Assembly: GCA_902728285.1 (NCBI GenBank)
Contig: CACVBU010000817.1
Location: 62,001 to 126,000, forward strand
DNA from: Clytia hemisphaerica
Lineage: Eukaryota > Cnidaria > Hydrozoa > Leptothecata > Clytiidae
Length of the DNA: 64,000 nucleotides
Reading direction: 5' to 3'
The first letter of the stretch is position 1, and each line of letters starts with the position of its first letter. Below the pieces are notes generated by a model that saw nothing but the letters and a program-made list of their open reading frames with translations, was not told where the DNA came from and did no database searches. Below, in pieces: positions 7,101 to 62,487 of the stretch. Position numbers and translations under genes: made by a program.

Positions 7101-10100
7101 ATTGCACCGATCTGTCTCTTTGATTGCTAAGCTTATTATTATTATTACAAAGGCATCAAGAACCATTATGGAGTCTATAGCATGACCCGGTGAGAGATTG
7201 AACCAATGACTTTTGCACTGTAGTCGAAGCAAATTTTTTTTCCGTGATCGGTTAGAAGAATCTTCCAAAGTTGGAAGAATATTCACTATTAAGGTTAGAA
7301 GAATCCTCGAATGTTAGAAAAATCTTTGGCTTTGGAAAATGGGCTTTTCCAGAATAAAACCGTATACCCCCTGTTGAGGAGGTCCATTTCCGTTCCAAGG
7401 GGGTAAGGTTTGGTATGTGGCGGAATTCCATAGGGAGATACAAAAATCTGTCAAAAAAAACTGAAATTCCATGGGGGTAGCCTTTTAAATCCTACTAAAA
7501 TTCAGAATTCTAGAGGGGTTTAAGCCTGAAATTGCCTGGAATTCCAGGGGGTTGCAGCATTTCCAGGCACAAAATGATGGAGCTCCTCAACAGGGGGTAT
7601 ACGGTTTTTTTTCTGGAAAAGCGCAATAACCGATCACGAAAAAAAATTTGCGTAGCCGAATGCCCTTATCATTTTGTTCTCCTTCATTTAGACTGAGACC
7701 TATGGAAACAATTATAGTTTGATTTTGGAGAGAATGCTTAACGCACTTGGTCAAGTCGATCTGGTAAGTAATGTATAAAAAAAAACTCGAAAAAATACTT
7801 TTTGTTCTGCTTACTGCCTGCCGTCGTTTTTTTATAAGTTTCCCATTTTCGCACTAAGATTCTTTTGCCACTTTACTAGCGGGAAAAAACTGGGACTTTG
7901 GGTAGTTGAAAAATGATCTTTGGAAAGTTAAGAAGTTAGGCAGTTAGGTAGTTTCGTGAGTAAACACAAGATCTTCGGTACCATTACAAACAAACCCTTT
8001 TCAATCTAATGCAGGCTATCCCGGGAAAAATAGCGGAAAGATTCTGGAAAAGTGACAAGAATCTTAGTGCGGAATGGAAAACTTAAAAAAAACGACGGTA
8101 TTTATAAGAATGAACCGGAATTTTGGTTATTTCCTCCTTTTTCGAAATTTGAAGTTCGGGCGAGAAAATCGCTTATTTCTCGTGGGCCATCTGCTTAATG
8201 CCATCGAATATTTCAATTGTGGGAATTTCCCTTTTTTTCTCTAATTTTACGACCATGATTTAGGCTAACCTTGACTGCCCTTATCGGCCAAAATTTAGTT
8301 GCCCCTAAGTGACTAAATTTTGGCTCCGTGACTAAAATTAGGGCCGACTAAAAATTTAGAAATGGCCAAAACTTGGTTATTAGTCGGCCCTTAGTGACTA
8401 AATTTTGACGAGGTGACTAAAATCAGGACCGACTAATAATCAAAGCCGACTAAAATTGAGGCCGAATAAGTTTTGGCCGATAAGGAACTGGTCAAAAAAA
8501 GTGTATCAAATATAATTTTTTTTCTCAGTCTTACCAAGCCATCAATATTCGATTAGTTTTGACCGCTCTGGAAATTCAAACAAAAGATCGTTTCCAACGT
8601 TCATCTAATGGTGGTGGAGAGTTATCGAATTATGCTACATATGTAATCAACACAATCAAGAAATTAGATTTTTATAAAGATATCTCTTTTGACCATGGTA
8701 TGTTTATGAGGTACGTTTTTCTTTTTGTAAGAACAAACTGTATAAAAACATAAGATTTCAATGGTTAAAATATTAAGAACAAGTTAAGTACATTCGAAGG
8801 CTTTGCTGACTCAAAAATGGCTAATTTTTTAAGAAAATGAACAAAAATATTCACAAAGTTGTGAAAATAAGATCACTTTAAGAACATTTTTACGCTTAAA
8901 AACCAAAAGTTAAGAACATGCTACCTCTTCAGAAATTTTGGATGTATCTTATAAAAGAACTCGTAACGGTGGCTGACAATTGAAATCATATATTCTTTTA
9001 TAAAGTCTTTAGTAAAAACCTTCCCACCCATGACGTTATAAATTTAAGACCATGTTCAGACGTTACGGTTCCGTTTCGTTTCGTTCTGTTCAGTTCCGAA
9101 ACGGTTCCGAAACAAGTGTGAACGTCAAAACTCGAAACGTCAAAAAAGAAGACGTTACAAAGCAAAACAGATTGAAACGGTTTCGCTCCACTTTTTTCAT
9201 CGGAACGGAATCGCTCCGTTTTCTTGCTTCGAAACGTTCCGAAACCAATATGTACACACTCGATCCGTAACGAAAACCATACCGGAACAAAACAGAACAG
9301 TAGCGTGTGAACTTGGTCTAAGGCCTAGCAAACGTGAATTGACGTCAAAAACGTTTGTTTTTGTTTTTAAAAAGTGACGTCAATGCTACGACTTCAAAAA
9401 TAGGCCCCTTGGGTTTTGACGTCAATACACGTTTGGTAGGCCTTAGATAGCGCTCCGCAACGCATACGTCATAATTATTACTTTTCACTTTTTTTGACAT
9501 TTGTACGAGTTGCAATCCCACAATTCAACGCGGCTCAATTAAAGATATGTGCAAGTTGTTATATATCTTTTGTCAAACGATACAATTAACGTGCAAAAGA
9601 GATTAACGCAAAGGTTGATGAAATTGGAACTCGTACAAATACATTGAGAGTAACGATTAAGTCAAAAATAAAATCAATTTTTAGATTCAGCGCGGTGCGC
9701 TATTTAGAACGCCATGTTCTCCCACTTCTGGCCTTTTCTGACAAAAATTGTTTCTGAAGTTATTAGGCCCGAAATAGTTTTTTTTAATCAAAAAACACCT
9801 TGTTTAGTTTCTCAAGTCCCTTCGCTTTGTTTAAGAATGCGTTCTATTCATAGATTTATACAACCCGAAGGGCTAGTGTCTAGGCTAATGTCGGGCTTTA
9901 AGCCATAGCAGGCAAAAAAAAGTGAATATTTTTATAAATCTATGGTTCTATTTTGCTTCTATACGGAAACAGATAGAGTCGATATTTTACGTGGATAGCC
10001 CAGTAATCTAGGACTTTTAGACAGTCTTTAGATTGTTTTCACGGGGTCCACGGCCAGCCGGCTCGGCTCGGCTATCTATGAACTGAACGGACCATTAGAA

Positions 10101-13100
10101 GGAGCGGGGATTCGAACTGCAAATCCCTGGTTTGAGACGCTGACGCCTTTGACCACTTGGCCATCGCTCCCCTAAGGAATCAAAGCTCTCAAAGGAATTT
10201 GATCTAATTACACTAACATGTTTTATATGTGGTATCAAAAAATATCCTTAAACCTATTTTGTCTTATCTTACAGTAAAACTGGGTGGAATGACGGCGTTG
10301 TTGGAATGGCGTACGTTGGAGGTGTTTGCAGCAGCTCTATACAATACTCCGTCAACTTGGTAAGTTAGTTATCTGATGTTCCGCCCACGATAAAGCTCTA
10401 AACAAAGACAGACAGATTTCCTATATCGGGGAAGAATGTTAGCCCGGGGGGGGGAGAAAGGTCCTATTCCGAAGAGTATACAATTTCCCCCAGAAAGCCT
10501 CTTCTACACTTTACAGATCATCTAAAGAATCACGCAATGTTTCGAACTCCAACCCTGACCCTAACTGATAAGATTGAAATAATCAAAAATCGAAAATATC
10601 AAAAAGGTCCAAAAGGAAGAATAAAAAAAGTCCACTTTTAGCCGTCCACAACCCCGACCGAAAAGTGACTGAACCACCCCTAACTACATGTGGTCTAAAA
10701 GAACGACAAATTACGCATGTGTGTTAAAGGAACATAACAGTACTTGCAAAATTTATAAACAAACTGTATGCAGCGGATACAAAATCAAAACAAATGTCAC
10801 ATGTCAAAATAAAAAATCAAACCAAATATAGCTAATTTTGATTGTTCAATTTTTTTACAAGTTTGTTTTGAACACGTGATTTTAATTGTTCTCTTTAATG
10901 ACACGTGGTTTGCGCAATGTTTACATTTTACTACTTTTATGTCCCTTTAATGCAGAAGTCTGATTTTTTAACTCTTCGGAATGGGACCTTTCTCTGACTG
11001 CGTATTATATCAAGTATGTTATGCAAAGCCTAGCCTAGCACGCTAGAAGACTAATTCAAACCGAAGTAAGACAGGCAAAAAATTATTGTTCATACAAACT
11101 GATTTTTTTCCATTACGATTATTGTTTTACAGTCTAGATTGAAAAACAAGCAAAACCAGACAATTTGATGAAATATGATAAGCAACAAAGTCCGAATATA
11201 AGCATCTTTCTGATCTTTTTATCAAAATCCAAGAAAAAAACAAGATGATGTGTCTAGGTTCGAGTCGAGTTATTGAGTAAGGTTTATATGGCATTGTTAA
11301 CTGAAGGGACCAGAAATAAACTTGTTCGAGTTAAGGTAACATTCGAGTTATAGAGGTTCTAGTTAAAGAGAACTCTCTGTATTATAAAACTACTGTATGG
11401 GCTCTTCCAGAAAATATTCGTACACCCGGGTAGCGAAAAATCAGCAAAATTTGCCTTGTCCGGGTGGTAAATTTGCTCTGTCCGGGGGTAATTTTGGTTG
11501 TCCGGGGGTCAACTGATTCTTGTCCGGGGGTAAAATCCGTTGTCCTGGGGCCAAAAGTCACTGTCCAGGGTAAATCACTGAAAGTTGCTATATTCTCCAC
11601 CCCTATATACACATGTTTTCTGGAAAAGAGCCCATTACGGGGATTATAAAGGACTCCAGACTATAAAAACCTTTGATTTCCTTACAGTGGTCGGCCAATG
11701 CGATCAGTGGACCAACAGTCATCCTTGGACACGAACTTGGACACAATCTCAACTTCCCACATGGTAAAATGATTAGTTTTAATAAATAAAACAGTCAGGA
11801 AGAAAAGACGCGTTTTTGCCAGAAGATTGTCACCAAAGTGACATGAAACTGCCATAGCAGAATAAAAAGGTGTCATGTCTTCCTGACTAACATCGCTCTA
11901 CTTATGTATCAAGCACAGTAAAAACCTTTTTTTTTACTATTGGGTGCTGCGACCGCAGTCGCAAGCGACCCAAAGGCTCCTCTTTCGATAGCTATCTACC
12001 CGAAAGTAGGGTAGGGCGCCACTCTTTCTCCCTGGATTGCTCCACTTACCCTCGATGCTTCTCTTAATTGCTGAGCATCAAGCAGATAGGCATCAAGTAC
12101 CCTTTTGGGAATCTTTAGTATGACCCGGCTGAGGGTTGAACCCACTGCACTAGGATCGCTCGAATACCTTACTATTGGGTGCTAATGGAGCTTGAAAAGT
12201 GGACCTTGTCAGATGTGAATGTTTGGTAAATCCCCTGACATAATATTTTACTCTGACAAAAGGCAAAAATAATTAAAACAAACAACGACAAATTGAAACT
12301 CTTACTAATTTCCACCCTGGAAATTGTACAAAATAACCAAAAAACACATCTTGAAAATTAGTAAGTTTGGGACCCTGCCAGATATTCTCAGAGTCTAAGA
12401 AAGATGACCCTGATTAGCTACACGTTATACTAGGCTAAAATAAGTTTGCCGATTTAAAATACCAAATTGCTAGACAATTCTATTAAGTTCTATTTCTCAA
12501 GCCAGTGTTCACGAGGACCTTTTTAAGCAGTGTGTTGGTATTTTTACCACGCTTTTTGCATTTGTTGTCTACGTCCCCGTAACAAATTTCACTATAACAC
12601 TATAACACTCCTTGACTATAACACTCCTCCTGTTTAACTTCTTTCCACAGATTCGGATCAATGCAAATGTTTGACACCAAGAGGATGTTTCATGGGTGGA
12701 TCAAAGTAAGTCCAAATATTGACATTTTATTACATTACCTTACAGTTCAACAAGGATATGTAACTGATTTTGACCTGCTTTTAACCAAGTTTCTTGTTTT
12801 AACTAGCTCTTTTCACAGATTTTCCGTAGAGACATGTGTCCAGATTTGAAGAGTAGTCTACGCCATGTTGTTTTCCGATTTACCTTAAAGCCGGTCTCCA
12901 CTTGCGCGCGCTTCAATCGCACTTTTTCGAGCAATGCTTCCACGCTATTGGTCAAAAGAAAAATGAAGCAATTCCATTGGCGCGATCTGACGTAACGGTT
13001 GAAAAAGTTGAAATGTGTTCAACTTTTTTTTCGAGTGCGCGCTACATGTTTATTACGTAATCTTTTTTCCAGCCAAAAAGTGCGATTTCAGCGTGCGCAA

Positions 13101-16100
13101 GTGGAGACCGGCCTTTAGGTTTCCGAACGTTCGCATTTCAAAACATTCGAATCGCGCTGTCGATTACCAAAAATTACTAGACTAGTCAGCTTTAAAACTG
13201 TTTGTACTTCCTTTCAAACACCCCTGTCTCACAGCCATGGTGGAACTTTTTTCCTCAGTGGGGATAAAAATTCCTATCGGGGATAAAAATTCTATTGTTC
13301 CAAGGTTAAAAAATCCAGTGGGGATGGTTTTGGAGTGCAATCTTTAAACATGAACTTTCGAATGGGGACGAAATTAAAGTCAATTTCCCAGTGGGCTGAA
13401 ATTACAGGGGTTTTTCCCATAGATTTATAAAGCCCGAAGGGCTAGATGTCGGGCTTTAAGCCATCGCAGACACAAAAAAAGTGAATATCGGACAAAATAT
13501 TGTTGCTATTGTTTTCGAAAACCCGCGAAGCTTCTGATTGGTCAATCGCTGAAATTCTATTGTAATATCACGTGACTTTGGTAGGATTTCCTACTTAACC
13601 ACGGCACACTTTTTAACAAAAGCTTTACATCTAGCCCTTCTGGCTTCATAATACTGCGCATGCGTAATTTTTAACCGGTAGTGGATATTTAACGGCTAGA
13701 ACCAAGTCAAATAATCCGGGAGGGGTGGACTCACTATTTCGGTCGGGGTTGTGGACGGCCAAATCCATTTTTTTGATTAGACGGGAATGTGACGTTCTTT
13801 AGTGACGTATTTGTCGCTTATTGGGTCACTACTAGTTAGGGTCAGGGTTGGACTCGAGAGTCACAACTGAGTGCCCTGGACCCATTTAGAGTCACTTTAG
13901 GGTCAATTGGACCCACTGACATAATTGAAAAACTTCGTTTTATTTAAAATTTTTCACTGTCTCTCATGGCTCGAAATAACGGTCGGACATCGGACATTGT
14001 CCGACCCAAATAGCTTCATGCCGACCTAAAAATCATTAATTTTAAGCTAAAGCATGCCTGATGGGACATTTTTTCCGACCCACTTGAAATGACAAAGTAG
14101 TCAGAAATCAGTGAGGGCGGCCAATAACGGCCCGATTCGCAACCGATCACTTTCCCTGTTTTTTAAACATTTGTTAGATCGAGCCGACCAGGGTTCAGCA
14201 ATTGTTCATTAAGTCGATTGGCTCAAAAAGAATTTGCTTGTATTGACAATGCTCCTAAAGCTGTAAGTTACATCACATTTAATTCTTTGACTTTTTAAAG
14301 CTCGTTCAAATTCGAAGTATTGTTTAATCAAATTTGTTCGAATTTCAATGTGTTCTAAAAGGGTTTCTCTGTTGAAAATAGCATATAACTAAACGTCACC
14401 CGCGTGTTTTACGCAAAACAATTCCACTCTATTCCACTTTATCTATCTACCTCTACATCTATCTCTATCTACCTGAAGGTAGGAGAGGGCGCTACTCTTT
14501 CTCCCTGGATTGCTCCACTTACCCTTGATCCTTCTCTTAATTGCTAAACAACAAGCAGGGAGGCATCAAATACCATTGTGAGAATCTTTGGTATGACCTG
14601 GGGGTTGAACCCACAACCTTGCGCACCGTAGCCGGATGCTCTACCACTGTACTACGGCTGTATTAGACGTATTATAAGCTATTCTACTTTAAAACTTCCA
14701 GTAACTCTTTGAATCACTTTTCTTCCCAGACAATGTTACGTCGATGTGGGAACGGTATCAAAGACCCTGGAGAAGAATGCGATTGTGGTACCGAGGAGGT
14801 TAGGATATGAAAGTACCACCAATAGGGTTTTTTATAATTTACGTCAGAAACGTCAAAAAAGCCTACACATCGATTCAACTTGATGACTCAAAGTCTTCAA
14901 ATATTTTCTGTTTGGACCTGCGCATAGTTTTTTGTTTTGCGGGTGAAATTTATGTCAATTAGGAACAGGCAGCTTGCTTGAGGTTTGCTTGAAAATCCCT
15001 AACTGGATTTTGCCGAATCTGTCTAAAACCACGTCATAATAGCACATGAATTGATTGTCGCTTCCAAAGTAACACAATTCTGTTTGCCAATTACTGCAGT
15101 GCCAATAAATTCGTCGTGCAACGATAGCCTACATGTATAAGTCTTTTAACAAGAACTTTTCAAATTTTGGGACAGAGATGAATAATTGAGACAGGGTGGA
15201 GGATTTTTTGTGAGCTTGAGACAGGGCTATGTTTCGTGGAGATATGGATTCGAGACATTGTATCACTGACAAATGCTTTAAGAGATGTACAGAGAGGGGT
15301 ATTAACAATTTTCCGTCTATTTTTCAGAATTGCAAGAAAAGCAATGATCATTGCTGTGAACCGAAATCGTGCAAATTGAAAGCGCACGTGCAGTGTAGTC
15401 ATTTCAATTACCCAGGATGCTGTTCGGAAACGTGTTATGTGAGTTATATTTATAAGTTGGTGTATTTTTTCACACTGGCCTTAATATATCCCTGCCATCT
15501 TTGATCGATGTTTTTTTTGAAGTGATGCCTGTAAAGAATCCATTGGATAGACTCACTCATTTCCGGCTCCGCTGACAGCCCGATGAATATACGCCAACCT
15601 GGCACTCAACGTTGGTACAACGTCCATCTAACGTTATATGAATGTTGAAAAAACGTTGTGTTCCAGCTGGGACTACTCACCTATTTCTCATATTTTTTTT
15701 CATGAACTTTAGTATCGTAAGGAGGGTACATTGTGTCGAAATGCTGATGGTAATTGTGACGTAGAAGAATATTGTACTGGTGATTCCCCTGCGGTAAGTC
15801 TGATGATTCCCCTGTGATAAGTCTGATGATCCCCTGTGGTAAGTTTGATGATTCCCCTGTGATAAGTCTGATGATCCCCTGTGGTAAGTTTGATGATTCC
15901 CCTGTGGTAAGTTTGATAATTTCCCTTGTGGTAAGTTTGATGATTCCCTGTGGTAAGTTTGATGATTCCCCTCTGATAAGTCTGATGATCCCCTGTGGTA
16001 AGTTTGATGATTCCCCTGTGATAAGTCTGATGATCCCCTGTGGTAAGTTTGATGATTCTCCTGCGGTAAGTTTGATGATTCCCCTGTGGTAAGTTTGATG

Positions 16101-19100
16101 ATTCCCCTGTGGTAAGTTTGATGATTCCCCTGTGGTAAGTTTGATGATTCCCCTGTGGTAAGTTTGATGATTCCCCTGTGGTAAGTTTGATGATTCCCCT
16201 GTGGTAAGTTTGATAATTTCCCTTGTGGTAAGTTTGATGATCCCCTGTGGTAAGTCTGATGATCCCCTGTGGTAAGTTTGATGATTCCCCTGTGATAAGT
16301 CTGATCCCCTGTGGTAAGTTTGATGATTCCCCTGTGATAAGTCTGATGATCCCCTGTGGTAAGTTTGATGATTCCCCTGTGATAAGTCTGATGATCCCCT
16401 GTGGTAAGTTTGATGATTCCCCTGTGGTAAGTTTGATAATTTCCCTTGTGGTAAGTTTGATGATCCCCTGTGGTAATTTTGATGATTCCCCTGTGGTAAG
16501 TTTGATGATTCCCCTGTGATAAGTCTGATCCCCTGTGATAAGTTTGATGATTCCCCTGTGATAAGTCTGATGATTCCCTGTGGTAAGTTTGATGATTCCC
16601 CTGTGGTAAGTTTGATGATTCCCCTGTGATAAGTCTGATGATTCCCTGTGGTAAGTTTGATGATTCCCCTGTGGTAAGTCTGATCCCCTGTGGTAAGTTT
16701 GATGATTTCCCCTGTGGTAAGTTTGATGATTTCCCCTGTGGTAAGTCTGATCCCCTGTGGTAAGTTTGATGATTTCCCCTGTGGTAAGTTTGGTTCCCTT
16801 GCGGTAAGTTTGGTTCCCCTGCGGTAAGTTTGATGATTCCCCTGTGGTAAGTTTGATGATTCCCCTGTGGTAAGTTTGATGATTCACGTGTTAAATGTTT
16901 AAACTTTATATTTACTTTAGTGTCCGGCCAATCGTTACATGAGAAATGGTATAAAGTGCGAAGAAAGTATCAAGGTAAAAACTAGACTAGTAAACTAGTC
17001 TGTTAATTAATGTTTAAACGGGTGTTTGCTAAAATAGGAGCTGCGTAGGAGAACAAGCAAAAGTTGGTGAGAGGCTTCCGCCTTGCCGCCGAAAAAATTT
17101 CTTCCTGCGCTTACCTAACTCCTACACTAACTTTTTCTACGTGACCGTTCCAGCCCGACTGGCGTGCCAGTCTAGGTAAAAACTAGTCTAGACATAATAG
17201 AAATAAAGCAAAACGTAATGGAGGGAACTAAATCCCGCAACAATAATTTCACTATCATATAACGCCTATACTACTGTATTAAAAAGAATCTGAAAAAGAC
17301 AACAGTCATATATGGAAAGTGAGAGGTAGTCCTAGGACTAAACTCCATTTAAAGAAATTTACGACTGAAGGAACATGATTATAAAAAGATAAGATCATAA
17401 GAAGATCGGGTTAGAAGCCCAGCGTGTGCTTAACTGGAAAAACTCTATAATAATTACACACATTACAAACGACTCCAGTCTAGGTAAAAACTATCCTATA
17501 TTTATTCACTTTAAGTGTACACTTTAGGTATGCGCTCTTGGTCCCATACGGTAACTACTATAAGCCCATTGATATCTTACATAAAACACTAGGTAGAGCT
17601 ACTCTATATTTCCCAAGCAACGGCAGGTGAAACAAAGTAATCTGCCATCTTTGCTGAAAGTAGGTCACAGTAGGTCACAGTTCGGTACCGGAAATTTGTT
17701 CAACCAAGCAAAAGAACCTGAATGGTCAGAGCGAAAGATAGGGATTGATCGATCAAATTGCCGGTATGGAACTATGGTCTACTTATCAAGATGACGGACT
17801 TTGAAGCAGTCTTTCAATTGTTTTCACGTGGTCGTCGGCCAGCTGGCTAGGCTATGTAATAACGAAGGGGTTTATCTAAAGAACGCATTACTAAAAATAG
17901 ACAAAAAGAACGACAAATTTCATAAAGAACGGCAAATGTCGCCATCCACAACGCCGACCGCAAGTGACTGCACCATCCGTACAGATTCATTCCTCTTTCT
18001 TCATTACGGGAATTAACTACATATAGTTTAAAGAATGAAAAATTACGCATGCGTGTTACAATTTTTTAGAGGGACAGACAAATATTCTACATCCCATATT
18101 TTTATTCTAGATGCTTTTCGGAACCAAATCGAGATATGGTGAAACAATCAATCAACTTTCACATCAAGTGATCGGTAGATATTTCAAAATTGAAACAAAA
18201 AAATGGGGTGCAGGAAACTGGGCTTGTTTGAGGATGGAAATGTATGGTTGTCATGCCAACAGAGGTCAGATTCAAACTTTTGGTTCACTTAAAGGTTTTG
18301 TTTTTACACAAGTGTTTCCGTTTCATATCAGACACATGTTTCATATCAGGACAGTGTCCCCCTATTGTTATATTATGCTGATATAATCATAAACTGTCTT
18401 TCTCTTCCTCTTTCTGACCGATCTTGCTCCACATCCGTATATCAAAAAGCTTGTAAATTAGAATTGATGAGTAAGCAAACAATATCACTCTAAATTAATC
18501 TCTGTTCGTTCGTTTAGTCAGTTTTTTTATAAGAACTAATCAATTTTAGACAAGGTTCGGTTGTGCTTATAGTTGGACTGAGCAGTGAAAAATGTCTTTT
18601 GCTACCTTTTGGGAACCACTCCCAGGGAAATTTATCTATTTACACTGTCATGAGAGTTCCACTTTTAAAACTAGGTAATCCGATACTTTTTCGGCCAAAA
18701 CTTAGTCAGGCCTAAGTGACTAAACTTTGGCTTTGTGACTAAAATTTGGACCGACTAAAAATTTGGGCCAAATTAAAAGTTTATAATTAAGCTTTCCTTA
18801 ACCAACTTTTTTAAATACCACACCATTACGTCCGCTACAATTCATTATTTCGACCGCTATTATTTATTATATATTAGTCGGCTCTTAGTGACTAAATTTT
18901 GACGAGGTGACTAAAATTAGGGCCGACTAATAATTAAGGTATATAAAATGTATCAAATTTTAAATATCTTCAGCCAATGTACCTACACCAATTTCAACGG
19001 TCGATTTATATTATCACAAACGAATGTGCGTCACACCAAAGATCGATACTGATGCAGAGTGTGCAAACATCCCCGATGGAACAAACTTAATATACAAGGA

Positions 19101-22100
19101 AATGCCGAGTAAGTGTAATAATGTGAAGTACCTTATCGGGAAAAATTTTCGTCACTTGGTCAAAATTTCGTCACTTTTATTCCCCGGCGAAGTTTTCCCC
19201 GATAAGGTAATAAAAGAACAATTAAAAGAAATACTGCACCGAAAATGAGAAAAGACAATGACCCTCTACGGCAATTAAGTTTGAAATTAGCCGTAGATAC
19301 TGGGTCTGTATACAGACAACTCTCAGAATGGAACATTCTTATCTTGTTCTTACCATGTTCTAATTTTCTTTCGTGTAATCTTCCCTGGCTAAACGTTCTT
19401 ATAATCTTGGCTCTAATAATTATTTCCGGTGTTTTGAAAAAGAAGGATGAAGGACAAGCGGAGACGTCCGGGGAAATGAGTGCTTCCTACTGTTTGGTTA
19501 GAAATCTATGGAAGAAGCTAAACGTTTTTTTAAAAGAACAAAGTATAATATGAGAACATAAGGCTTCGATGGCCAAAAAGTTAAGAACATCCCAAGACTT
19601 CAGAAGTTGTGAATGTTCTTATAAAAAAACAACGTGTAGCCTTTGTATTGATCCCGACCGGGATATCGTGTTTTTCAGGCTTTATTTACAAATAAACACC
19701 AGGGTACTGTCTGGCGTTAATAAGTAAGCATCGAAAAGTCGATAATACAAGAGGAATAAGGCCACATACCAAATATTTGCTCCAAGTTTTAGTTACAACT
19801 AGCACTTCCGGCGTCGTCCGAGACGACTCTTTTTCAAATTTTTAATAATAAAGAATGAAGCCGCAATTCTGCTCGCCCGAACTTTTATTTCTTAAAGACG
19901 TTGAAATATCCAATTTTAGATTTCGATTGTGACCACAAGCGAATGTTGTTCGACTATAACGCAGATGGATCATTGATTCATCATTGTAGTGGAAAACGAA
20001 TTTGTCTCGATCAAAATGGCTTTTTGCAAGTATCTTCTCAATGTGGTATCGAAGAATCCAAGTTTGAAAGAACAGAGGTAAAACTGTACTTACAGTTGAC
20101 GCTCTCTAATTCGATTTTCAAGGGGAATTCAAATTTCATCGAATACGGTAGCGTATCGAATAGTAGGAAGTCTCTCCAATTCGATAAATACAAAGCAAAT
20201 ATCGGATTATAGGGCTGAGAAAGTAAAGTATAGACGAGACTCGAGTTTGAGGCTAACATCTTCTTACCGTCTAAATCTGTCCCTGCAGACGCCATTTTTA
20301 CAGTCGAAGGCCTGTTTTTGTTTTAAATTTCGTTTTGGAAAATTTTAATTCGAACGTTCGAGCGAAAAAAAATTGCGAATTCAAAATCAACCATAAAGGC
20401 CTTTTTACACACCAGAAATCAAATTAGAGAGAAAAATCTTCAAGGGACTTAAAATTTTCATCAATAATGGGAGCTTATCGAAATATAGAATATCGAATAG
20501 TAGAGCGCCGTTTATGAGAGTTTAGGGGAGCTTATTGAAATTAGAGAGCGTCAGCTTCATTTTAAAATTATGTTTTGTTAAGTTACGTTAATTCAAAATT
20601 TTTTTGAAGCGAGCGTTCGATAAGCCTAAAAGGCCGCTCTCCACTTGCGCGCGCTGTGATTGCACCTTTTGGCTTCAATCCTTTTTTCTTGGAAAAAAGA
20701 TTACGTCATAAAAATGTAGCGCGCACCTGAAAAAAAAGTTGAACACATTTCAACTATTTCAACCGTTACGTCAGATCGCGCCAATGGAGTTGCTTCATTT
20801 TTCTTTTGACCAATAGCGTGGAAGCCTTGCACGCTTTGCGATCGCAGTGTGGACAAGCGAACGTTTTCTTCCATAATGGTGGGAATTGCGTAACTTAAAA
20901 CGTAATATGGAAAAACTCTAGAAATGAATAAGGTATCTGGTCTTTTTTTGGTTATTAATTCCGTAAAAAAATAAAATAACTGAAATAAAATACAATATTA
21001 CATACTGAATATCACCAATTTTTATTTCGACCTCAACCAACAGGCATTGTCGGTCAAACAGAACGGTAAATGTTGGCTCGCTGAAAGAAAATGGCCGTTC
21101 CCGAATAAAAGAATCACACTCTCCGACATGTGTGAGGATAAGACGAATTCCATAACTGTTCATCAATTTTATGAAACTGGTACGTAAATATCTCTTTATA
21201 GTATAAACTCTCGCTTATTTGAACTTCTATTACCTTGTCGGCCTTAATTTTTGTCGGCCTCAATTATTTGTCCGCCCTAATTTTAGTCACCTTGTCACAA
21301 TTTAGTCAATAAGGGCTGACTAATAATTAAGACCGACTAAAAATTTGGGCCATTTCTAAATTTACAGGCAGATGGAAAATAGGAGACAGCTTAAAATACT
21401 GAAAAATAAGGAAAGCTTAATTATAAACTTTTAATTTGACCCAAGTTTTTAGTCGGCCTTAATTTTAGTCGGCCAAATTTTTTAGTCGGCCCTAATTTTA
21501 GTCACCAAGCAAAACTTTAGTCACTTAGGGCCGACTAAGTTTTGGACGATACGGTATTCGAATCATTTATGAATTTTAACTAATTCTCAGTTTCCACTTT
21601 AAGAATAAACACTTTTAAAATACTTTCTATAATTCGAATCACTCTGTAATTCGAACAAATAAGATTTCTATTGAGAGTCTACTGTATTGCGGTAATTTTA
21701 CATGGATATTATTAGTTACACGATCTTCTAGAGGTGGGATACGGGATATATAGGGTCAGTAAAAACCGTATCGCTTAGTATTCACGATACGTAGTAGATA
21801 CGGTATATATCCTACATCCACGTGATGTCTTTTGACCAATGAAATCGCTAGATTTCTTACTGATGCGGGATATTTAAGACGATATCACATAGCTTAGTCG
21901 GTAGAACACTATTGTCATAGTATAACACGAAAGTCGTAAGTTCGAATTTCAATTCAGTCCCCAGTTTAATAGTTCGCTATCAAACTGAGGTCAGTGCGCA
22001 GATAAACTCCTTGGTACCGTAAGTTGGTTTAATGTCGACATCCATCTTCTAATTTCGACACCCTTCTTTAAAGATAGGAATGATAGCAGGGTCCGAATCG

Positions 22101-25100
22101 CTGATGGGAATTATTTTTGTTTGCTTAGCAAAGTATGCAAACAGAGTGGAAAAATTATTTTGTCTATCATTGGGTCCCAACCTTCCTATCATCCCTATCT
22201 TTAATGAAGGGTGTCGAAATTAGAAGAGGTATGTCGACATTAGACCAACTTTGGTACTTTACATGGATAACCCAGCCAAGTCTAGGACTTTGAGATCACG
22301 CCCAGATCACGGTCCACGCCCAGCCGGCTCACCTATCTATAATGGAGAATATGTTTTTAAATAAAAGGTTGTTCTTTTCTTGAAGAGTTACAAGTGCAAA
22401 ATTTACTTTGAAAAAACTACTTTGTCAGTTTTTCTTCGGTCGCTCGCTGTGTAAGCAAAAATGATGATAGTAGATACGTTAAATAATTCCTTTAACAACT
22501 GTGAAATAATTTATTTCTCGATTTTGGGTTTTCCCTCTTAAATTGCAAGATACCACAATGGTTTTTGCATTGGAAACTATCTTATTCATGATATAACTGG
22601 AAAATAGTTTACTTTCTCGATTTCGGGTTTTCCCTTTTAGATTGCATAATGCCACAATGGTTTTTGAATGGGAAACTACCTGACTCAGCATTTAACTGGA
22701 AAATAATTTACTTTCTCGATTTCGGGTTTTCCCTTTTAGATTGCAAAATGCCACAAGGATTTATGAATGGGAAATTACCTGACTCAGCATTTTCCGCAAG
22801 TTCTTTTGCTGTTGGCGATGAACCGTTCAAAGCAAGAATTGGCAATGCTGGGAAATGGTGTCCACACAAAGCAGGTACTATTCACTAGACTAGTCTGTAA
22901 ATTAATCATGTCAGAGGGCGGGAACATAAAGGCGGTAGGCGTTTGCTAAAATAGAAGCTGCAAATTGTGTCCAAAGAAAGCAGGTACTGTTTACTAGTCT
23001 AGCAAACTAGTCTGTTTGTTAATTAATCATGTCAGAGGGCGGGAACATAAAGGCGATGGGTTCTAGTTATAATATGAACTGCGTAGAAGAACGAGCAAAA
23101 GTTGGTGAGAGGCTGCTGATTAACAGCTTTCAGCCCTTGCCGCCGACAAAATTTCTTCTTACGCTTACCTAACTCCTACGCTCACTTTTCCTGCGCGTGA
23201 TAGCGTTCTAGCCCGACTGGCGTGCCAGTCTAACTGTTCACGCTTTTTTATAATAACAACCAAAGATTTGAAGTGTTCTTAACTTTTTGAGTTTTAAGTC
23301 TAAAAATTTTCTTAAAACAGCATTTGACTTTCCAGGTCTAGCGCAAATAGAAAAGGGGATGGAGTCTCTCGTTGCCGGCTCCGCCGAGAGTCACCAGCTG
23401 AAAATACAGTTAACTCCCAGTTGTTCGAACCTGCACTCATTCGAATAATTCGGTTATTCGAAGTGAGTTGGTGTTCCTCTTGAATCTGCTTACCCAACTC
23501 AGGCAAAAAAACTCTCAGTTATTCGAACTCTCAGTTATTTGAAGCTATTTATATCCCCCTTGGAGCCAATTATATTCGAATTTTTCTTATTGAGAGGCCG
23601 TCGAGTGAGAACATTGATTTTCTGCGATTAAAATACTTCTTCAAATAATCAAGTTGCAACTTCCATGGCTATTTACACTCTTCAAGCTATTTTTTCAAAA
23701 GCTCTATTCCTGTTTGGTTCAGAAAACCACAATGCCTCAATTACAAAGGTCCATTTGATCAGGGTTAAGTTGAATAACATGTCTTTTTCAGTTTTTTTTA
23801 ATAAGAACAAATTATATAAGAAGACTTTGATGGCTAAAATGTTAAGAACCAGATAAGAACATTGTTAGGCTTGAAATTCAAAAAGTTAAGAACATCTGAA
23901 GGCTTCAATAATTTTGGATGTTCTTATAAAAAAATGTGTATTAAGTTTTAAGTGAATTCTTATCCCTCCTGTATCTACTATATTTTGTCATAGGTATTGG
24001 CGGATGGTTGAAAATCGATTTAGGTAAACAAGTTAAAATTACAGCGATTGGAATTAGTTCTGGATCATATTGGAATTGGGTTACAGGCTACCATCTTTAT
24101 TCATCAGATGATGGTAAACATTGGACACCGTTCAAAGACTTAAGCGATCAAAATTCAAATGTAAGTGATATGAGTAATATACTAGACGATGCTATCGACC
24201 GTTAGAGGGGTCAGTAAACACGGGCAAATATTAGGTCGGTTTAAAAAGTGGCGGTATTAGAGTTTGGAACAAACACTGTAAACACCTCCGCCACTGCTCA
24301 CTCCGCCCCGGGCTAACAAACATTTTCAAATTAATCACCCTTTTTTAGTGATCTTGTGTAGACGATAGGATTCCCAGCTGGCACACAACGTTGTTTCAAC
24401 GTTTATCTAACGTTCACGACGTCCATATAACGTTAGATGAACGTTGAAATAACGTTGTGTAGACGATAGGATTGTCTAGTAATATACTAGAGTAGCTACT
24501 TCTGACTGAACTTTGCTTTTTGATGATTTTGATGACGCTGAGCCCAGTGAAGAAGACTAAAGGATATCGCCATCTTGTAATTTTTTCACTTTCGTTTTCA
24601 AAAAATTATAAAACGACAAAACAACGGAATAATTCCTAAACCCCATCAAAATTTATGAAACTATAATAAAAACAATACCTCCCACATTTGAAAAAAAAGG
24701 TCAATCGATCATGGTTTTCTGTTTGTTTTTCTTCAAAAAGTGACTAGATCTAGTGCTATGGATTTGCTGCCACCTCAAATTACACCGGGCCACTTATTAG
24801 CGCCATCCAGTCTATCAAAAAGCTATGTTGCCCCCGGGCTATGTGAGTAATAACTCAGATAATCTGTTAAAGGGATAGAAAAAGTGGGAATTATATGCGC
24901 AAAGATTCGAGAAGTATTTGCGTGCCGGAAATTAACAGCCGTATGATTGAGCACGAGAAAAAACAGCGACAGTAGAGTTTGAACAAACGGGCAATGCCAT
25001 TTTGGTAAAATAATGGTTTGTGCGGTGAATTCGTATAGTCTGACACTGTCAAACCCTGCCGGCTGTAAATTCTTTTTAGTGAAAAAACCTGTGAGAATTT

Positions 25101-28100
25101 TCTTCAGCTTTCACTATAGCACTAGTCTTAGTAGACTAAAACGTCATTAAACACATTTAAACATTTAAAAGAATACCCTTATTAAGAAGAACACGAGAGG
25201 TATTATTTATTCATTTGTTTATATACCACAAAACCTCGAACTTCAGTGCTTCAGTGCTTCAGTGATCGCCGAGTCGAGAGTATGAAGCGGCGTAAAACCA
25301 ATATAGCCTAACGATTATATCAGTGGAATTTTTCACCCCTTATCAATAAATAAGTCAAATTAAAGTAAGCTTAGATTGTATCTAATTAAAAAGTATTAAT
25401 CACGGGGGGTACACATAGACAAATAGAGGGTGTGGTTACTTGCCGCCCTTAGCGTTGCCTTTTTAGGCAATCGAAACAGATCATAAATTCAAATTCCAGC
25501 CTCTTAAGGGTTCTGAAGGAACTATGAAAAAGGAGAAAATATCAAATTTTGCCTTACTTAGCCACTAAATTTCTGAAAAATTCTGCTCAAAGTTCTCTAG
25601 TTCCCAAATTTTAAGATTTTTCCAAAAACTTTGACCCCAAATTTTCCAATTTTTCCAAAAACTTTGACCCCAAATTTTCCAATTTTTCAAAAGTCGGGCG
25701 GCTGTCGCCCATCATTCAACCTTGTACCAATAGACCTTTTCATAAATTACGTCGCGAACATCACCTACCGAGGCAAGTCTTGTCGGTGACGTAGTTTATG
25801 AAAAGGTCTATCCTGAATGTTTATAAAATGACCGTTCATTCATCTCGTAACCAGGTCAACAATAGCATGTGCTTCAATGGAGTATGTCAAAAAACGTTGA
25901 ACCACCAATGCCAATCTCTATGGAACGTTGATACCAAAAGCGCACCAAATGAATGCTGGGATAAGCTTAATACAGAAGCTAAAGGCTTTGGAACGTGTTC
26001 GCCAACAGCTAATACATCTTGTACGACAGAGAATGTCAAATGTGGACAGATACAATGTCAATCACCTGATGATAGACCGTATTATATTGACTATGGAACG
26101 CAATATAAGAAAATTGATAGCTCGTCTCATACATGCAGGTAATTCTACACGCTGTCCCAGTGATCCGGTGACGTTTTGAAATTAAGAATTAAGCGAGAAA
26201 TTGACAGCTCGGCTCATAAGTGCAGGTAATTTCACACCCCTGTCTAAGTGATGATGACATTTTGGAAATTCACCGGGTGGCTATGAAAAGAAAATTTCTT
26301 CGGGTCGTATTTTGAGATTTTAAGAACTCACTGGGATGAGAACTTTTTTTTAACTCAATTTTCACCGGGTTAGGGTAAAAGTTCACTTTTCTGGAATTCA
26401 TTAAGCTTACTCAATTTTAATTGGGTTGACCTAATCAATACGATTATTGACGGTGGTAAGACCATAAATTTCCCAGTTTTGTTGGCGTAGGAATTTTTAT
26501 TAATTTCAACAGGGGCTTTGTATTTATTTTCACCGGGTTTCCGCCGGGGAGGATCTAACCGGCTCACTGATGCATGGAGTAACTGTTGATTATTTTAACC
26601 TGTATCCAGGTAATAATTGGCTCTACCAGAAAATGTCCGTACATGGGAGGTGCTGGAGGATATAGTGTCCGGAGTTTAGTGAAAAATCTACAAAATTTGC
26701 CTTGTCCGGGGGGTAAACTTGCTCTGTTTGAGGGTAACTTTGCTCTGTTTAAGGGTCAACTGATCAACTGATACTTGTCCGGGGGGTTACACCTGCTGTC
26801 TGGGGGTAAATTTCCAAAAAATGTTATATCTTCCGCCCCCATATTCAATTCTTTTCTGGAAGAGCCCATTTCACCAATATGATACAGCCCAAGATTAGAG
26901 AAGAATCTCCTATATAAGATTTGAAGTCACTTTTCTTATATAAATAGCGCACGGCCGCTGCTCGATTTTGGAACAAACGCTTGCTTGAAAGTAACATCCA
27001 CCGCCAGAGTTAGAAAGATTTAAAACAAAACATAAGTGATGGATTCAATCTGTCGTCATCCGAAACACGGCTCGATTTTTCACTTTTATTTCTTGGGAAA
27101 GGTTGAAGATTTTCCTCTTGCCTTCGGCTTGAAAATCAATGAACTACAGTCACTTCAATATACACGTTTGTTTTTATAAGAACATCTAAAATTTTTGAAG
27201 TCTTAGGATGTTCTTTAGTTAGAATCCTAAAAATGTTCTTAACATGTTCTTATTTTCAGCTTTTTTTAAGTATTTTTCTCCTTTTTCTTAAGAAATCGGC
27301 CGTTTTCGAGTCTGCAAAGCCTTATGTTCTTAACTTGTTCTTAACATTTTTACCATCGAAGTTCTTAATAGTTTGTTCTTATAAAAAAAACGTGTAACAC
27401 AAGACCATTTTTTCTTAGTGCTGCGTCAATAACAGACAGTGAACAAGTTGGACTTGGAATGGTTCAAGATGGCACCAAATGCGGTGAAAACAAGGTATGG
27501 TATATATTAATTCAATACCTTATGTCTCTTACGAAAACACCTTAAATTAAGCCAGAACCGGCAACTTTTTAAAAGTGTTGCCATAGTTCGTCCCCCCTTT
27601 TCTTAAGAGGAATGACACCTTCTGAAAAAATGAAGAAGGCGGGGGGGGGTGGAGGGGTCAGAAATTTTCATGAAAAAAGGGGTAGCAAGAAAGGGGGAAC
27701 AGTTTAAGAAGGGGGGCTTACATAATATATTGTAGATTATTTTCAAGCACTGTTATGAAATTTGGTCTTCATGAAAGTAAGTTTTCTGTTAGAGTAGTCT
27801 GAGTCAAAAAGAAGATTATTTCGCTTTCTCTCTCTAAAGATATTTCACATATATTTGTTACTTATTTTTTTCCAAAAAATCCTTGGGGATAGACATTTTT
27901 AAAGGTTGAGAGATGCCAAGAGGGGGAGGATCAATCCCCTTCCCGCTTGCTTTAGCTTGAATTTCTTGTAGTAGTTTGCCACTACTTCTGGTAAAAGCAA
28001 GGGTGTTTCCGTAAAAACATTATGCAACGAATTCATGAATATTTACTAACTTGTATAAAACAATTATCAATCGGGAAGAAAGTTTCTCACGTTTATCGCT

Positions 28101-31100
28101 TCGTAGTACATTCTGTGCGCATTGTCTGTTTGATAAAAAAATTCCCGTACGGAGACCTCTGCGATGAAGTATGATTTATGAATAGTAACACTTCTCAACA
28201 ACACCCCATTACAACGCGTCGGTGACAACAGACCCTCTACGGCAATGAATTTTGAAATTAGCCGTAAATACTGGGTTTGTGTACAGACAAGGAAGAAAGT
28301 AGCTCACAAGCGAATTCAATTTCAGCATTCAGCCCGTAACATGTTTTTAGACGCTAGTTTAAGGTTTTATTTACCGCATTCTAGATTTTCACCAGCCTTC
28401 AAAATAATTTGTGCGTTTAAATAACGCCAAAAACTACAGATAAAGAATAAGGAGGTGGAGCTATAATTCTGTGCCGATGGGAGCAAATATGTTCGATTTT
28501 AACCCCCTAGTATGCCTTAAAATAGCCTTATTCAAATTGTACGGCACGTGATATGAAAAATCTCTCTTTAGGCGAGTGGACCATGGACTCACTGCCCTCG
28601 CCTCGCGTCTTGGGCTTAAGCCAACAAATCCTACCAAAGTTGTGCGGCCTTGAGCGGCTCGCCTGGTTTTTACGCAAATGACAGATTGAAACTAAAATTT
28701 ACCGCTAAATTTCGAAAAAAATATCAATCGTAAACAAAGGAATTGCTAGATTCAATCTGTCGTCAAAAAATACGGCGCATTTTTCAAGGCTTCACTTTTT
28801 CTTGCCTGAGAAAGGTTAGATATTTTACTCTAGCCCTTCGGGCTTTAAACTCAATGGTCATGACCCTGTGATTACTCGATATTCAACTTAACTTCCATTT
28901 CAGTTTTGTATGAACCAACAATGTAAAACAGCCAAAGATCATGGAATCAAAGAATGTTTTATAGTTGATGGTAAAGAATGTAATGGGAAAGGGGTATGTT
29001 CACTGACCTACAGTCAACTCTCTGTAATTCGAACTAAACATTGGTCCCTTTAAGTTGAACAGTTGGTTCGTGCAGTGTTTACATTTTACTACTTTTATGC
29101 CCCTTTAAAGGGTAAGTCTTCGAATTGTCTCTACTTAACAATAGGCAAAGTGCTATTTTTCCTTAGTAGCTGTGTTAGCTGCTTTACCATAAAACTTTAC
29201 CTCTTTTTAACGTATTCTAGGTTTGCAGAAATGGTGGTGTCTGTCAATGTGAAGGTCTTCTTAATCCATTGACTGGTTGTAAAACAGGTAAAGAAAATTA
29301 ATTATTCGTAATCACATACTCCCCTGTATCAGTGATTGGTTAATTTAAATGCTGGTGTAAATAGATTGGCAAGCGTCTTCTTTCCTTGGACACAGGAGCT
29401 CGGGGAATAGTGCTTATATAAAGAGTTCTTATAAAAAATAGAAATTACTGTGGGAGGGTAGTTTGGAAAAGCAGTATTCAGCGACGTAAGTAGTTTGCGA
29501 CCGCTGTCGAGGGCGACCCGAAGGCTCCCTTTTCGTATAGCTGTCTACCCGAAGGTAGGGGAGGGTGCCACCATTTCCCTGGATTTCTCCACATTCAGCA
29601 ACGTAGTGAGCCCATTGCAAGCGTAAGCTGTAGCGAAATACAACGACTAGGTTTACTAGTCGATTTTTTCTGGAAGAGCCCATTGCAATGTCTTCCACTG
29701 ACCCAACAATTGATTGATTGAAAGAAACCTATTGAGTGATTTTACGTCACTTACAACCAATCAGATATTGGGTCTGTAATGTAATGTCAGACATTGCAAT
29801 GGTGCATATCATGTTTTGCCCACTTTTTACCCACTCTAACAATTAGAAATGGTAAGGTAGAAAGTTGACCGTCTAAACTAAAGCTTAGGCTATTTTTAAA
29901 CCAATTGGTAAACACCGACTTTCTGCCCACTCTTATTCATAATAAACCACAGCGTCGTTTATTTTCTTCATTTCCTCCGATAGTTTACTTACTTTACTTT
30001 TTGCCATAGTCTATTCTCCCATCGATGGTGGTTTCAGCCAATGGAATGAATGGACCACGTGCACAAAAGGATGTGGCGGAGGAACACAGTCTCGGTACCG
30101 GCATTGTGATCAACCAACACCGAAACATGGCGGCAAAAGCTGTGGTGGTGATTTATTAGAATCAAGAAATTGCAATACTGATGCTTGTCCTCGTATGTAA
30201 AAATTTGATGGTTTATGCACAGTTTATGATCTCGAATTTAATTTTCAAGGACAATCCCATTTCTATTTTATTGAATATTGGAGCATACCACATTAAGGTT
30301 ATATATATATATAAAATTTACTGGAACGATAACTAACATTCAATCTTAATGTTTTGTTAAGTTACGTAACTCCCACCATTATGGAAACAAACGTTCGAAT
30401 CTGTGGCAAGGCGGTCCGTTACGCAAATCGAGCGTCTACTTCATTAATGGTTGAATTTACGTAATTTCAACAAAAAATGAAAAAGAGTTGAATGTCTCTC
30501 TTTTCCGATTGACACTTATAGAACAAGACACCCCCTTCGCACAGACCCACTGGGAACCCTTTCCACTCGAAAAAGTTGTCAGAAATATTTTCCCAGGTGG
30601 AAATTATCCTCCAATTTTTGTCCCCACTGAAAATAATCAAATAAACCAATCGTCACTGCAAAACATCATGCTATTTTTCACATCCCCACTGAATTTCCTG
30701 ACTTGAAAACAAAAGAATTGAAATCCCTAGCCATAAAAAATAGGGGAATATCAATTCCCATTGAGTTTCAGTCCGTATTTTTTACCCCTCACTGTATGAA
30801 AAAATTCTAACAGGTCTGTGAGAAGGGGGTGTAAGAAATTTATTTTTTAAATTTTTAGTTGGTCGATCATGCCTTGCTATCCAACTCATTCTACAGAAAG
30901 AGGAGCGTCCACTGTACGATGGGATATATCAAATAAAACCGATTGAAAGCCAACATTCGTTCCCAGTCTACTGTGATATGACGTCAGATGGTGGAGGCTG
31001 GACTCTACTCGTTTCATCACACATGAACAATTGGACAGAAGCTAATGTTGTTTTGCGGAATCCGCAGACCCCATCTTTGAGTCATGATTATTCAATATTG

Positions 31101-34100
31101 AAACGCGGAGATGCAATTAAAAGAAATTATTTGATTTCAGAACCCAATTTCGAATACAAGATTGAAGCACACACCAGAGGTATAATAAAAAAAGATAACA
31201 CCTCTATGTAACTGTAGGTCTGGAATTTTTCGTTGACTACAGTTCACGGCGATCTGTAATCGGATTTATCGGATTAAAAAATGCTCCATTTTGGTTGTGA
31301 AAAAAAAATTAATGAAGTTTAACGATAGGATTTTTCCTTTATCCGATACAGAACAATGAAACGGATATCCAGTGAAAATATCAGAGCTCTACTCCTTCCT
31401 GATCGGGAATTCTTCCAATTCTGATTTTGAGGGAGCTTACGCGGGATATGGCGGGATTTAGAGGGATCTAAAATCAAACATTTCCAGAATGTGTTCAAAT
31501 TCTACACATAAGGGTTTTATTATTCTTTTAGGAAACTGAACAGCACTTATTACAAAAATTGACTTTCGAATTCCCCGATTTTTAAACATTACTCTAAAGG
31601 TCGGAGTGGTTGAAGCTCTCTAATTCGATTTTCAAGGGGAGCTGGATGGGGAATAAGGGAGCGTGTCGAATGGTAGAGCGGCGTTTATGAGAGTTTTTTG
31701 CTGATTGTGGCTTTCAATATTATCGAATAATGGAGCGTATCGAATAGAAGATAACGTCGAATTAGAGAGTGTCAATTGTATTTAAAAAAATCCCGTGGAA
31801 TCCCAACCCCTTACCCAACTGTAGTTTTTCTCAGGTTATAATTTTTTATTTCTACCCCCGATTGCTGAAAATGTCCTACCGGATTTGTGAGAAGGAGGTG
31901 CTGTATTGCGAAATAACGTATATTTTCAGGACATTGGGGTGGTATATGGCGTGCACCTAACTCGTATTCCATAAGCTCATCAAACAGTTACCAAACTGAC
32001 GTCACTTTGTTAAAGAAATTCAATGATTGGCAATACCAGTCTCGCGGCCTACAAGAACGCTTACCATACCTCAATAAACAGCGATTAACGACAAGTTTCG
32101 GAGAATGGGGAAGCATCACAGGTAATATGTTCTTCTAATAGGCCATTTCACAGTCGCAAAGCGTAGTGGGTAATCAGGAATATTGCGCGCCAATGACGAC
32201 TTACTAATTGGTCCAAAGTTTTGAAAAACTTTAAAGATAATTGCGTCTATCCAACGGGAAACCGTTTTCAGGGCGCGCGACCAGTCCTGATTACCAATGA
32301 TCCATTTCGACTGTGAAATGGCATATGCTCTAAGGAAAAACGTTTCTAATAAATAGAGCTTGCTGAATACACCTATCAACACTATATCGGCGCGGTTGGC
32401 TATTGCGGGGAATGGTAATGAATTTGCTCTCGGCGCACATGATTTCTAGGCTGCCTCTGTCCAATACACTCTTCTCGAGATGCATGAATTTATTGTTGTC
32501 CTCGTTTTCAAACAGATTTCATTGCTATGAAATTATACATTTAAACCAATTTAAATTCCCAAAAGGAAAACATCAACTCTAAAACAAAATTACTTGAAAT
32601 TCAAAACGTCTCATGAGGTGTAAACAACACAATTATCATTGTGAATATATGTAATTTTATAGCAATGAAATCTGTTTGAAAACGAGGACAACAATAAATT
32701 TATGCATCTCGAGAAGAGTGTATTTTCGTCGTTTTTATCGTTGCCAGTCTCCTCAAAAGCTGACAACGTCGCTAAGGTTTGATAGGTATATTCAGTAAAT
32801 CCCTTTTCTAGGGAAGGCTTTCCTTTTCCAGAAAATACCTCTTTCGCTTTATTTTGATGAAGTCAGGATCCTCTGAGGAAAAAATCTCATTTGGAAGCTG
32901 CTCAACACACTCAGAAGATCTTTTGTCAGAAAATGTAGCCTTTCCCAAAATTTCGTACTCTTGTCTCCCGAAAATGACGGGGGGGGGGGGGGGTCCGAAT
33001 AAGCAGAGGGTAGGAAAATTTTCTAAATTCTAATAAGGGGGGGTTGGAATAAGAGGGGGGTAATTTGAAGACAGAATTTTTTTAAACTGGTATCAATTTC
33101 ATCAACAAAAAAGAAATTTTAACAAATGAACACGTAAAATAAGAATCAATACTAACAAAAAGGTAAACTTTAACAAGTTTAAGATCTATCTACACTGTAA
33201 TAAAATATTGAATTATTCGAATTTAATTAAAACGGGGTGGGGGGTCTTAATAAGAGCGGGGGTGGACCTTTTTGTGAGGGTATGCGCTGCTCATCTTCTA
33301 ACGAACTAAATTCCTATACGAAGTAGTACAGCAATGGTCTTCAAATCAGACTAAGTTAATGACTATAAGCTTGGAGTGTGAACCACAGACTTTTAAAAAC
33401 CACAGGTAGTCTACGGAGGGCACGAATACGTTAGTGGATACCAGACTAATTGGCTTAATATTGTACCGTACCCATAGCAACAAATCGAACCGATTGGTTG
33501 ATGAAACTTAAAATTATGATGTAATTGACTAAGATGAACCAATCAAAGCTGAGAAAAAAGCGTTGATTGTTAAGAGAGCTTTTGATTGTTATAGGTATAA
33601 GTACGGTATCCGTAAAATTTACCGGCTTAAGACTGCTAGCCAATGGATCCTATTCAAAGAAATCTTTCATTTTTTTTTTAGATAATGAACATGCAGTACT
33701 ACCAGCCAATTATATCTCTGGTGATCACATGATGGCTATGCCTGAACACGTCTGGTAAGTGATTTAGGTAAACCTCTAGTAAAACTAAACTGCAAAGTTA
33801 GAGACTACGACTACTGAGCGCAAGGTTGGTCAAACCCCATACTAGAGGCGTTTATAATACGTGTAATACAGTAGTATAGGCGTTATATGATAATACGATT
33901 ATTGTTACGGGATTTAGTTTGTATGAACTAAAATTGTTCCCTGCATTACTTTTTGATTTTTGCTACTATGTCTGAATTAGTCAAACCCTAATCGGGTCAT
34001 GCCAAAGACTTCGTTAAAATGGTACGTCATAGATGGTACTTGCTGTATTTTAGTTTAAGTTACATTAGAGTTGATATTTTACCTCGATATTTTACCTTGA

Positions 34101-60880: not shown

Positions 60881-60947
60881 GCCTTTATGCTTGTGTTTCC
60901 TGACCACGCAGGCCGGATTATCAATTGCCATTGATTTCCCTTTTTAG

Positions 60948-62478: not shown

Positions 62479-62487
62479 GTAATAACA

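Follow-up and report, generated by a model that had tools for sequence, protein, structure and literature searches.

How does a protein come to carry the two halves of a single discoidin domain in reverse order, with a different module between them? The question is raised by a stretch of 64,000 nucleotides (the window) from the 417-Mb genome of Clytia hemisphaerica (Hydrozoa, Leptothecata), namely C560:62001-126000, in which six exons read, in this order, as the C-terminal half of an F5/8C (discoidin) domain, a trefoil-like module and the N-terminal half of an F5/8C domain. All six exons belong to a single ADAM-type metalloprotease gene of C. hemisphaerica. Our overall account of the locus, which we regard as probably correct, is that the exons form a cassette within an ADAM gene, that the cassette encodes a permuted F5/8C domain folding as one, that it was captured from intron to intron, and that it may serve the protease as an exosite for adhesion and glycan binding.

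The cassette and its host gene

The six exons, c1 to c6, all lie on the plus strand with AG before and GT after every one, and together comprise 885 nt free of stop codons. Exon c1 (18111-18264) encodes the C-half of the F5/8C domain, and c5 (22740-22874) and c6 (23994-24160) encode the first and second parts of its N-half, as recognized by Pfam, by a discoidin profile built from the coral Oculina and by half-domain profiles. Between them, c2 (18974-19108), c3 (19920-20077) and c4 (21044-21179) encode the three successive parts of the trefoil module, as judged from exon borders and a fold search, and the two discoidin halves lie about 143 residues apart. An earlier reading of the window, made from its sequence only, had proposed these exons and this order, and the GT-AG borders and PF00754 matches confirm both. 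This sequence-only reading had also pointed out that c6 joins back to c1 in frame, closing the exons into a ring. The closure holds, yet it adds no evidence because it is automatic for any in-frame cassette whose outer borders are both in phase 0, as they are here; likewise, nothing further is needed to explain why the ring's open frame is endless.

The exons on either side of the cassette, which had not been recognized as ADAM exons in that reading, identify it as an insert in a protease. Upstream, c0 (16921-16974, plus strand) belongs to the disintegrin region (gene model, PF00200) and ends in phase 0, and downstream, d (25855-26138, plus strand) is a cysteine-rich exon (PF08516) that starts in phase 0. 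Joined to each other without the cassette, c0 and d stay in frame and match one ADAM cysteine-rich domain (PF08516, E 2.8e-17) over positions 1-100 of the 115 of the ADAM_CR profile, with the insertion point at profile position 7/8. The host exons (catalytic, disintegrin, TSP1 and fibrinogen-like) came to light when the window was compared to paralogous loci, and the resulting gene model had 22 exons at first and was then extended to 38. The extended model (6297-55039) has a single frame, GT-AG borders throughout and a stop at 55039; it starts at 6297, with earlier exons further upstream. Its 1828-aa product is identical to the C-terminal 1828 residues of P0004 (UniRef A0A7M6DPA1, Clytia hemisphaerica), a protein that was located only after the model was built. 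The swapped order, including the linear joins c0-c1 and c6-d, is already present in this annotated protein, which reads: propeptide, reprolysin, disintegrin, discoidin C-half, trefoil, discoidin N-half, ADAM cysteine-rich, and then TSP1, fibrinogen-like and further domains.

Two further Clytia contigs, C236 and C128, carry paralogues in which the exons follow in the same order, again flanked by disintegrin and ADAM_CR exons. Their cassettes (891 and 882 nt, respectively) are open, have phase-0 outer borders and share 64% and 42% identity with that of the window. For C128, the short c0 exon was not located and the chosen c4 acceptor may be three bases late, which leaves the frame unaffected. 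In this paralogue (1329446-1321574, minus strand), c2 and c3 form one exon and the c5/c6 intron is shifted, indicating that introns drift while the swapped order stays. For the pair C560 and C236, the ratio of nonsynonymous to synonymous divergence (dN/dS) is 0.27/2.52, dS being close to saturation.

A protein search with the full-length model listed ten proteins. In eight of them (P0004-P0011, predicted or annotated proteins; 1854-2255 aa, all with an initial Met), disintegrin, C-half, trefoil, N-half and ADAM_CR follow one another in this order without exception. P0004 is the window's own protein and P0005 is approximately the product of C236 (293 of 297 cassette residues agree), leaving six others. 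The species named are Clytia hemisphaerica, Hydractinia symbiolongicarpus and Hydra vulgaris, and the related-species comparison that the sequence-only reading had called for thus finds the swapped order kept in Hydractinia and Hydra. P0002, whose start is missing, shows the trefoil end, the N-half and ADAM_CR, while P0012, from the coral Oculina, is an array of 13 discoidin pieces (one of double length) without ADAM domains. The source sequences of P0006, P0009 and P0010 (6368, 5709 and 6886 bp) are hardly longer than their coding parts, from which we infer that they are transcripts. Two narrower searches returned one fragment (cassette only) and P0002 together with Aplysia ADAM22 only (852-aa model; proteins of 2000 residues were outside its range). 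A tree of nine cassettes has four of its six inner branches starred and a very long Hydra row, and no inference was drawn from it. Finally, with regard to ADAM genes without the cassette, 4 of 10 places (two on C545, one on C693 and one on C577, the last with an internal stop) match ADAM_CR from profile position 1 across the insertion site and look uninterrupted there. The recurrence of the order and of the outer phases at two paralogous loci, and of the order in all eight long proteins, shows that the arrangement is not due to chance. From these comparisons of sequence, the swapped order looks like a real and old rearrangement.

One discoidin domain in two pieces

When the cassette is arranged in natural order (N-half, then C-half), it gives one PF00754 stretch over positions 3-127 of 127 with 70.7 bits; as encoded, it gives two partial stretches with 60.7 bits in all (cut-off 28.2). 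The natural-order cassette can likewise be aligned through the join with each of the two factor V C domains; one of these alignments has a gap of a single residue. A second profile of 148 positions, independent of the proteins tested, was built from 12 units of Oculina P0012, leaving out the double-length piece. With this profile, natural order gives one domain with more bits, and actual order two partial domains, in each of the eight proteins. The N-half alone ends at profile positions 98-102, and the C-half alone begins at positions 104-108 in seven of the eight and at 117 in Hydra, so that the gap between the halves is 2-6 positions in seven proteins and 14 in Hydra P0011. In all eight proteins (most weakly in Hydra), the swapped segments complement each other as the N and C parts of one F5/8C domain, with a single cut between them. 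Furthermore, all eight sequences have, without exception, a Cys near each natural F5/8C end (cassette residues 47 and 196, corresponding to Cys571 and Cys720 of P0004, in which the cassette spans residues 525-819). In the C domains of factor V, the Cys residues near the two natural ends form a disulphide.

Half-domain profiles find one C-half and one N-half (over two exons) per locus at all three Clytia loci. It had been considered that further halves flanking the cassette might have been missed, but a six-frame search of the 64-kb window and of two 40-kb neighbourhoods gives no additional discoidin half at an i-E value of 0.5 or better, apart from a 19-residue scrap. This sole extra match is a remnant of a duplicated c5 start.

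The surroundings of c5 contain several duplications. At 22497-22792, the c5 acceptor and the beginning of the exon are present in three tandem copies of 99 bases, and the middle copy, which retains 19 N-half residues, forms a decoy for the start of the exon. At its 3′ end, c5 is duplicated together with its donor (22853-22934 and 22962-23055). In addition, copies of one repeat begin shortly downstream of two donors, at 16981-17174 after that of c0 and at 22993-23232 after that of the duplicated end of c5.

The module between the halves is predicted to be a β-trefoil. A fold search with the cassette found a β-trefoil match, while the window's trefoil sequence has no Pfam match and does not match Ricin_B_lectin (PF00652), for which P0009 scores 28.0 against a cut-off of 29. 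A trefoil profile gave no match to PDB sequences up to E 10. A fold search of a viral library gave two rows under E 0.001, both lectin-like, which were not used. In AlphaFold predictions of the cassette, the C-half is confidently predicted only with the N-half present, and the confidence is lost when the N-half is removed. The two halves are predicted to combine across the trefoil into a single, circularly permuted F5/8C domain. Taken together, the annotated protein, its homologues, the complementarity of the profile matches, the Cys pair and the predicted fold support the original proposal of a permuted discoidin with a lectin-like linker.

Origin of the cut and competing explanations

Ordinary-order discoidins were read on C254, C589, C294, C455 and C658. 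At all seven C-half anchors, hand-picked from the BLAST rows, the C-half opens with a phase-0 acceptor whose position differs from the start of c1 by no more than one or two codons. Judged by eye from printed flanks, the seven ordinary C-half exons end in phase 1, and five N-halves start in phase 1. The cut lies at a phase-0 intron common to many, not all, ordinary discoidins of the genome. The junction phases along the cassette are 0 (c0-c1), 1, 1, 0, 1, 1 and 0 (c6-d). The trefoil is thus a 1-1 module enclosed by discoidin borders on both sides, and the cassette as a whole is a 0-0 segment that is out of register by part of a domain.

Since the cut coincides with a shared phase-0 intron, an out-of-register exon shuffle is its likely origin. 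The starting material of such a shuffle would have been ordinary discoidins, which here have borders in phase 1 and often an inner intron in phase 0. The segment taken would have begun at this inner intron of a first discoidin, included a phase 1-1 trefoil and stopped at the corresponding intron of the discoidin that followed. This 0-0 segment would then have landed between ADAM exons whose facing ends are both in phase 0. The product would be a permuted F5/8C domain whose new ends sit side by side, plugged into the start of the cysteine-rich region, with the trefoil tying the old ends together beside the conserved Cys pair. That circular permutation can be a direct product of exon shuffling, at once folded and nested in a protease, is an idea that we advance tentatively, our confidence in it stopping just short of an even balance. 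If it is true, the intron record of the capture is still readable in Clytia, even though Hydractinia and Hydra have the arrangement as well.

Several points weigh against this account. On the protein side, the Hydra copy is degenerate, with a natural-order match of 51.6 bits that extends only to position 138 of 148 and an F5/8C Pfam score of 28.8 for P0011 (cut-off 28.2). The packing of the halves is predicted from pLDDT and pTM; two of the five cassette models are poorer (67.0 and 60.0); and splitting a domain may lower model confidence in any case. There is also no F5/8C structure among the best 50 fold matches listed, where the trefoil filled the lists and left the discoidin part unprobed. 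On the intron side, the C455 anchor has a second AG candidate that is out of phase, C254 and C589 look like near copies, and at least four ordinary discoidins (C658 middle, C450 twice and C808) lack the internal intron, each being encoded by a single exon. In addition, none of 23 loci scanned (3-10 kb, best candidates only) contains both a discoidin and a trefoil, and no gene with the two side by side in ordinary order was seen. These loci, some of them overlapping, comprise 20 with discoidin matches, two with trefoil matches and one with neither; a C460 locus is counted among the 20, and its weak match ran into the trefoil part of the query. The intron phases are compatible with the earlier suggestion that the cassette is one register of a former tandem array, but no surviving parent was seen.

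The most serious alternative is a stepwise permutation by duplication within the ADAM gene, in which a whole discoidin-trefoil-discoidin unit was inserted first and its outermost two half-domains were lost later. Duplication followed by loss is the classical model of circular permutation in PMC3320104, where the natural route is also described as debated, and tandem discoidins are common, with several on C658 and the 13 pieces of Oculina P0012. However, no remnants of outer halves are found at the three Clytia loci or in the eight proteins, and both outer borders fall at the internal phase-0 intron site, which a single out-of-register capture explains in one step. We consider the stepwise route possible, if somewhat doubtful.

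A different view of the product would be that the halves pair between two molecules (domain swapping) or act as separate half-modules. The 143 or so residues between them would accommodate this, and the predicted model covers one chain only. Nevertheless, the C-half loses confidence without the N-half, the Cys pair is invariant and the natural order gives one domain, points that do not strictly separate intra- from intermolecular pairing; we regard domain swapping as unlikely. We judge it similarly improbable that the cassette is optional, with the main product skipping it via the c0-d join. That this join keeps the frame and gives an ADAM_CR match over positions 1-100 of 115 does count against our account, as does the search bait, which contained the cassette, so that forms without it would be under-seen. 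On the other hand, the cassette is present in all eight long proteins, three of them (P0006, P0009 and P0010) from transcript-like sequences, and its DNA is under constraint, as indicated by the comparison of C560 with C236.

The sequence-only reading had also raised a back-splice from 24160 to 18111, which would yield a circular RNA whose open frame, in natural order, never ends. Frame and phase permit it, but phase closure comes with any cassette of this kind, the flanking introns share no significant inverted match (best E 0.8) and the linear joins c0-c1 and c6-d are found in the annotated protein, which leaves the circular RNA very improbable. An assembly error or local misorder, for which the tandem duplications in and around c5 might speak, is to be rejected because C236, C128 and the proteins of other species show the same order.

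The host protein, its likely role and its precedents

All host exons lie on the plus strand. The reprolysin (M12B) catalytic exons (6297-6398, 7692-7763, 8529-8710, 10275-10359, 11688-11763 and 12651-12705; PF01421) are found letter for letter in P0004. They are followed by exons for the end of the catalytic domain and the disintegrin (14178-14262, 14730-14798, 15328-15438 and 15713-15793; gene model, PF00200). Downstream of d, the cysteine-rich end and an EGF-like stretch, the latter assigned by eye and without a Pfam match, occupy 27419-27494, 28904-28993 and 29221-29287, and a first TSP1 follows at 30010-30192. The fibrinogen-C-like exons (30859-31179, 31930-32121, 33682-33754, 34545-34725, 35162-35284, 35799-36020, 36723-36829, 38206-38383, 39343-39509 and 45338-45639) make up three stretches by alignment with P0002, of which PF00147 scores one. 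A second TSP1 (47204-47377) is followed by a second copy of the trefoil-like module (48826-49107 and 50227-50352; gene model and profile), which sits between it and the PA14-like exons (52085-52270, 53620-53746 and 54871-55039 with the stop). In P0004, the propeptide, reprolysin, disintegrin (PF00200), F5/8C, ADAM_CR, TSP1 (two stretches) and fibrinogen C (one stretch) score above the Pfam cut-offs, while PA14, with 21.2 bits, is below its cut-off of 24.

Past the stop of the gene, a further trefoil-like exon and PA14-like exons at 60935-63192 are apparently a partial tandem duplication. The window also contains an intronless frame of 331 codons in a host intron (41378-42370), with a weak, below-cut-off DUF4846 match, and a minus-strand frame of 134 codons downstream of the gene (57151-57555), with no Pfam match. 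Two satellite arrays are present, one at 2286-3289 (49-base unit, about 20 copies) and one at 15781-16885 (23-base unit, about 49 copies), which stops just before c0.

The zinc-site sequence HELGHNLNFPHD spans exons 11688-11763 and 12651-12705. The reprolysin domain matches PF01421 with E 3.9e-27, and the motif HExGHNxxxxH, which includes the three zinc ligands of the pattern HExxHxxxxxH, is present in all eight proteins. The zinc motif of M12B usually carries a further Gly. A further point against our account is that this Gly is kept in three proteins (P0009-P0011) and replaced by Asn or Asp in five (P0004-P0008), including the product of the window's gene, so that catalysis is not certain. 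Beyond the first 45 residues, the eight proteins show no transmembrane-like segment by a crude test (top 19-residue Kyte-Doolittle mean 1.46), and we therefore describe the protein as a secreted ADAM-type protease rather than a membrane ADAM. The most plausible reading is that of a secreted protease, which the added TSP1, fibrinogen-like, trefoil and PA14-like domains may hold on matrix, cell surface or glycans. The permuted domain sits at the start of the cysteine-rich region, which in ADAMs helps to recognize substrate. The new ends of the permuted domain are adjacent by construction, which suits insertion in a loop, and the domain may, together with the trefoil, form an adhesion and glycan-binding exosite of the protease.

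The Clytia protein shares with ADAMs the order of propeptide, reprolysin with HExGHNxxxxH, disintegrin and ADAM_CR; it differs in the insert at ADAM_CR 7/8, in its C-terminal TSP1, fibrinogen-like and PA14-like parts, in the missing transmembrane-like segment and in the zinc-motif Gly, replaced in five of the eight proteins. With ordinary F5/8C domains (PF00754, as in factor V C1/C2), it shares both halves, a Cys near each natural end and a score above the cut-off, but the order is swapped and the natural ends are linked via the trefoil. Compared with the MytiLec-type and R-type β-trefoil lectins, its trefoil is without a Pfam match, and its sugar binding is putative.

Circular permutation itself is an established phenomenon. 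The closest precedent is the swaposin, or plant-specific insert, of plant aspartic proteases, which is explained by permutation from tandem repeats and, as in Clytia, is a permuted small domain inserted in a protease (PMC3320104). The cassette is no swaposin, its domains being F5/8C and M12B, and the likeness is an analogy only: a saposin helical fold in an aspartic protease on one side, a discoidin β-sandwich in a zinc metalloprotease on the other. On the Clytia side, moreover, a whole trefoil joins the old ends and the cut lies at an intron shared with many ordinary copies. We found no report of a permuted discoidin domain in the literature searched, part of it at listing level, and no paper for four identifiers of the cassette proteins; a permuted discoidin nested in a protease thus appears to be new.

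Many unpermuted relatives in the same genome keep the intron at which the cut lies, so that the route of permutation is testable here. A very common adhesion domain would tolerate both a cut and a module of 143 residues between its old ends, which would provide a natural example for the design of nested domains.

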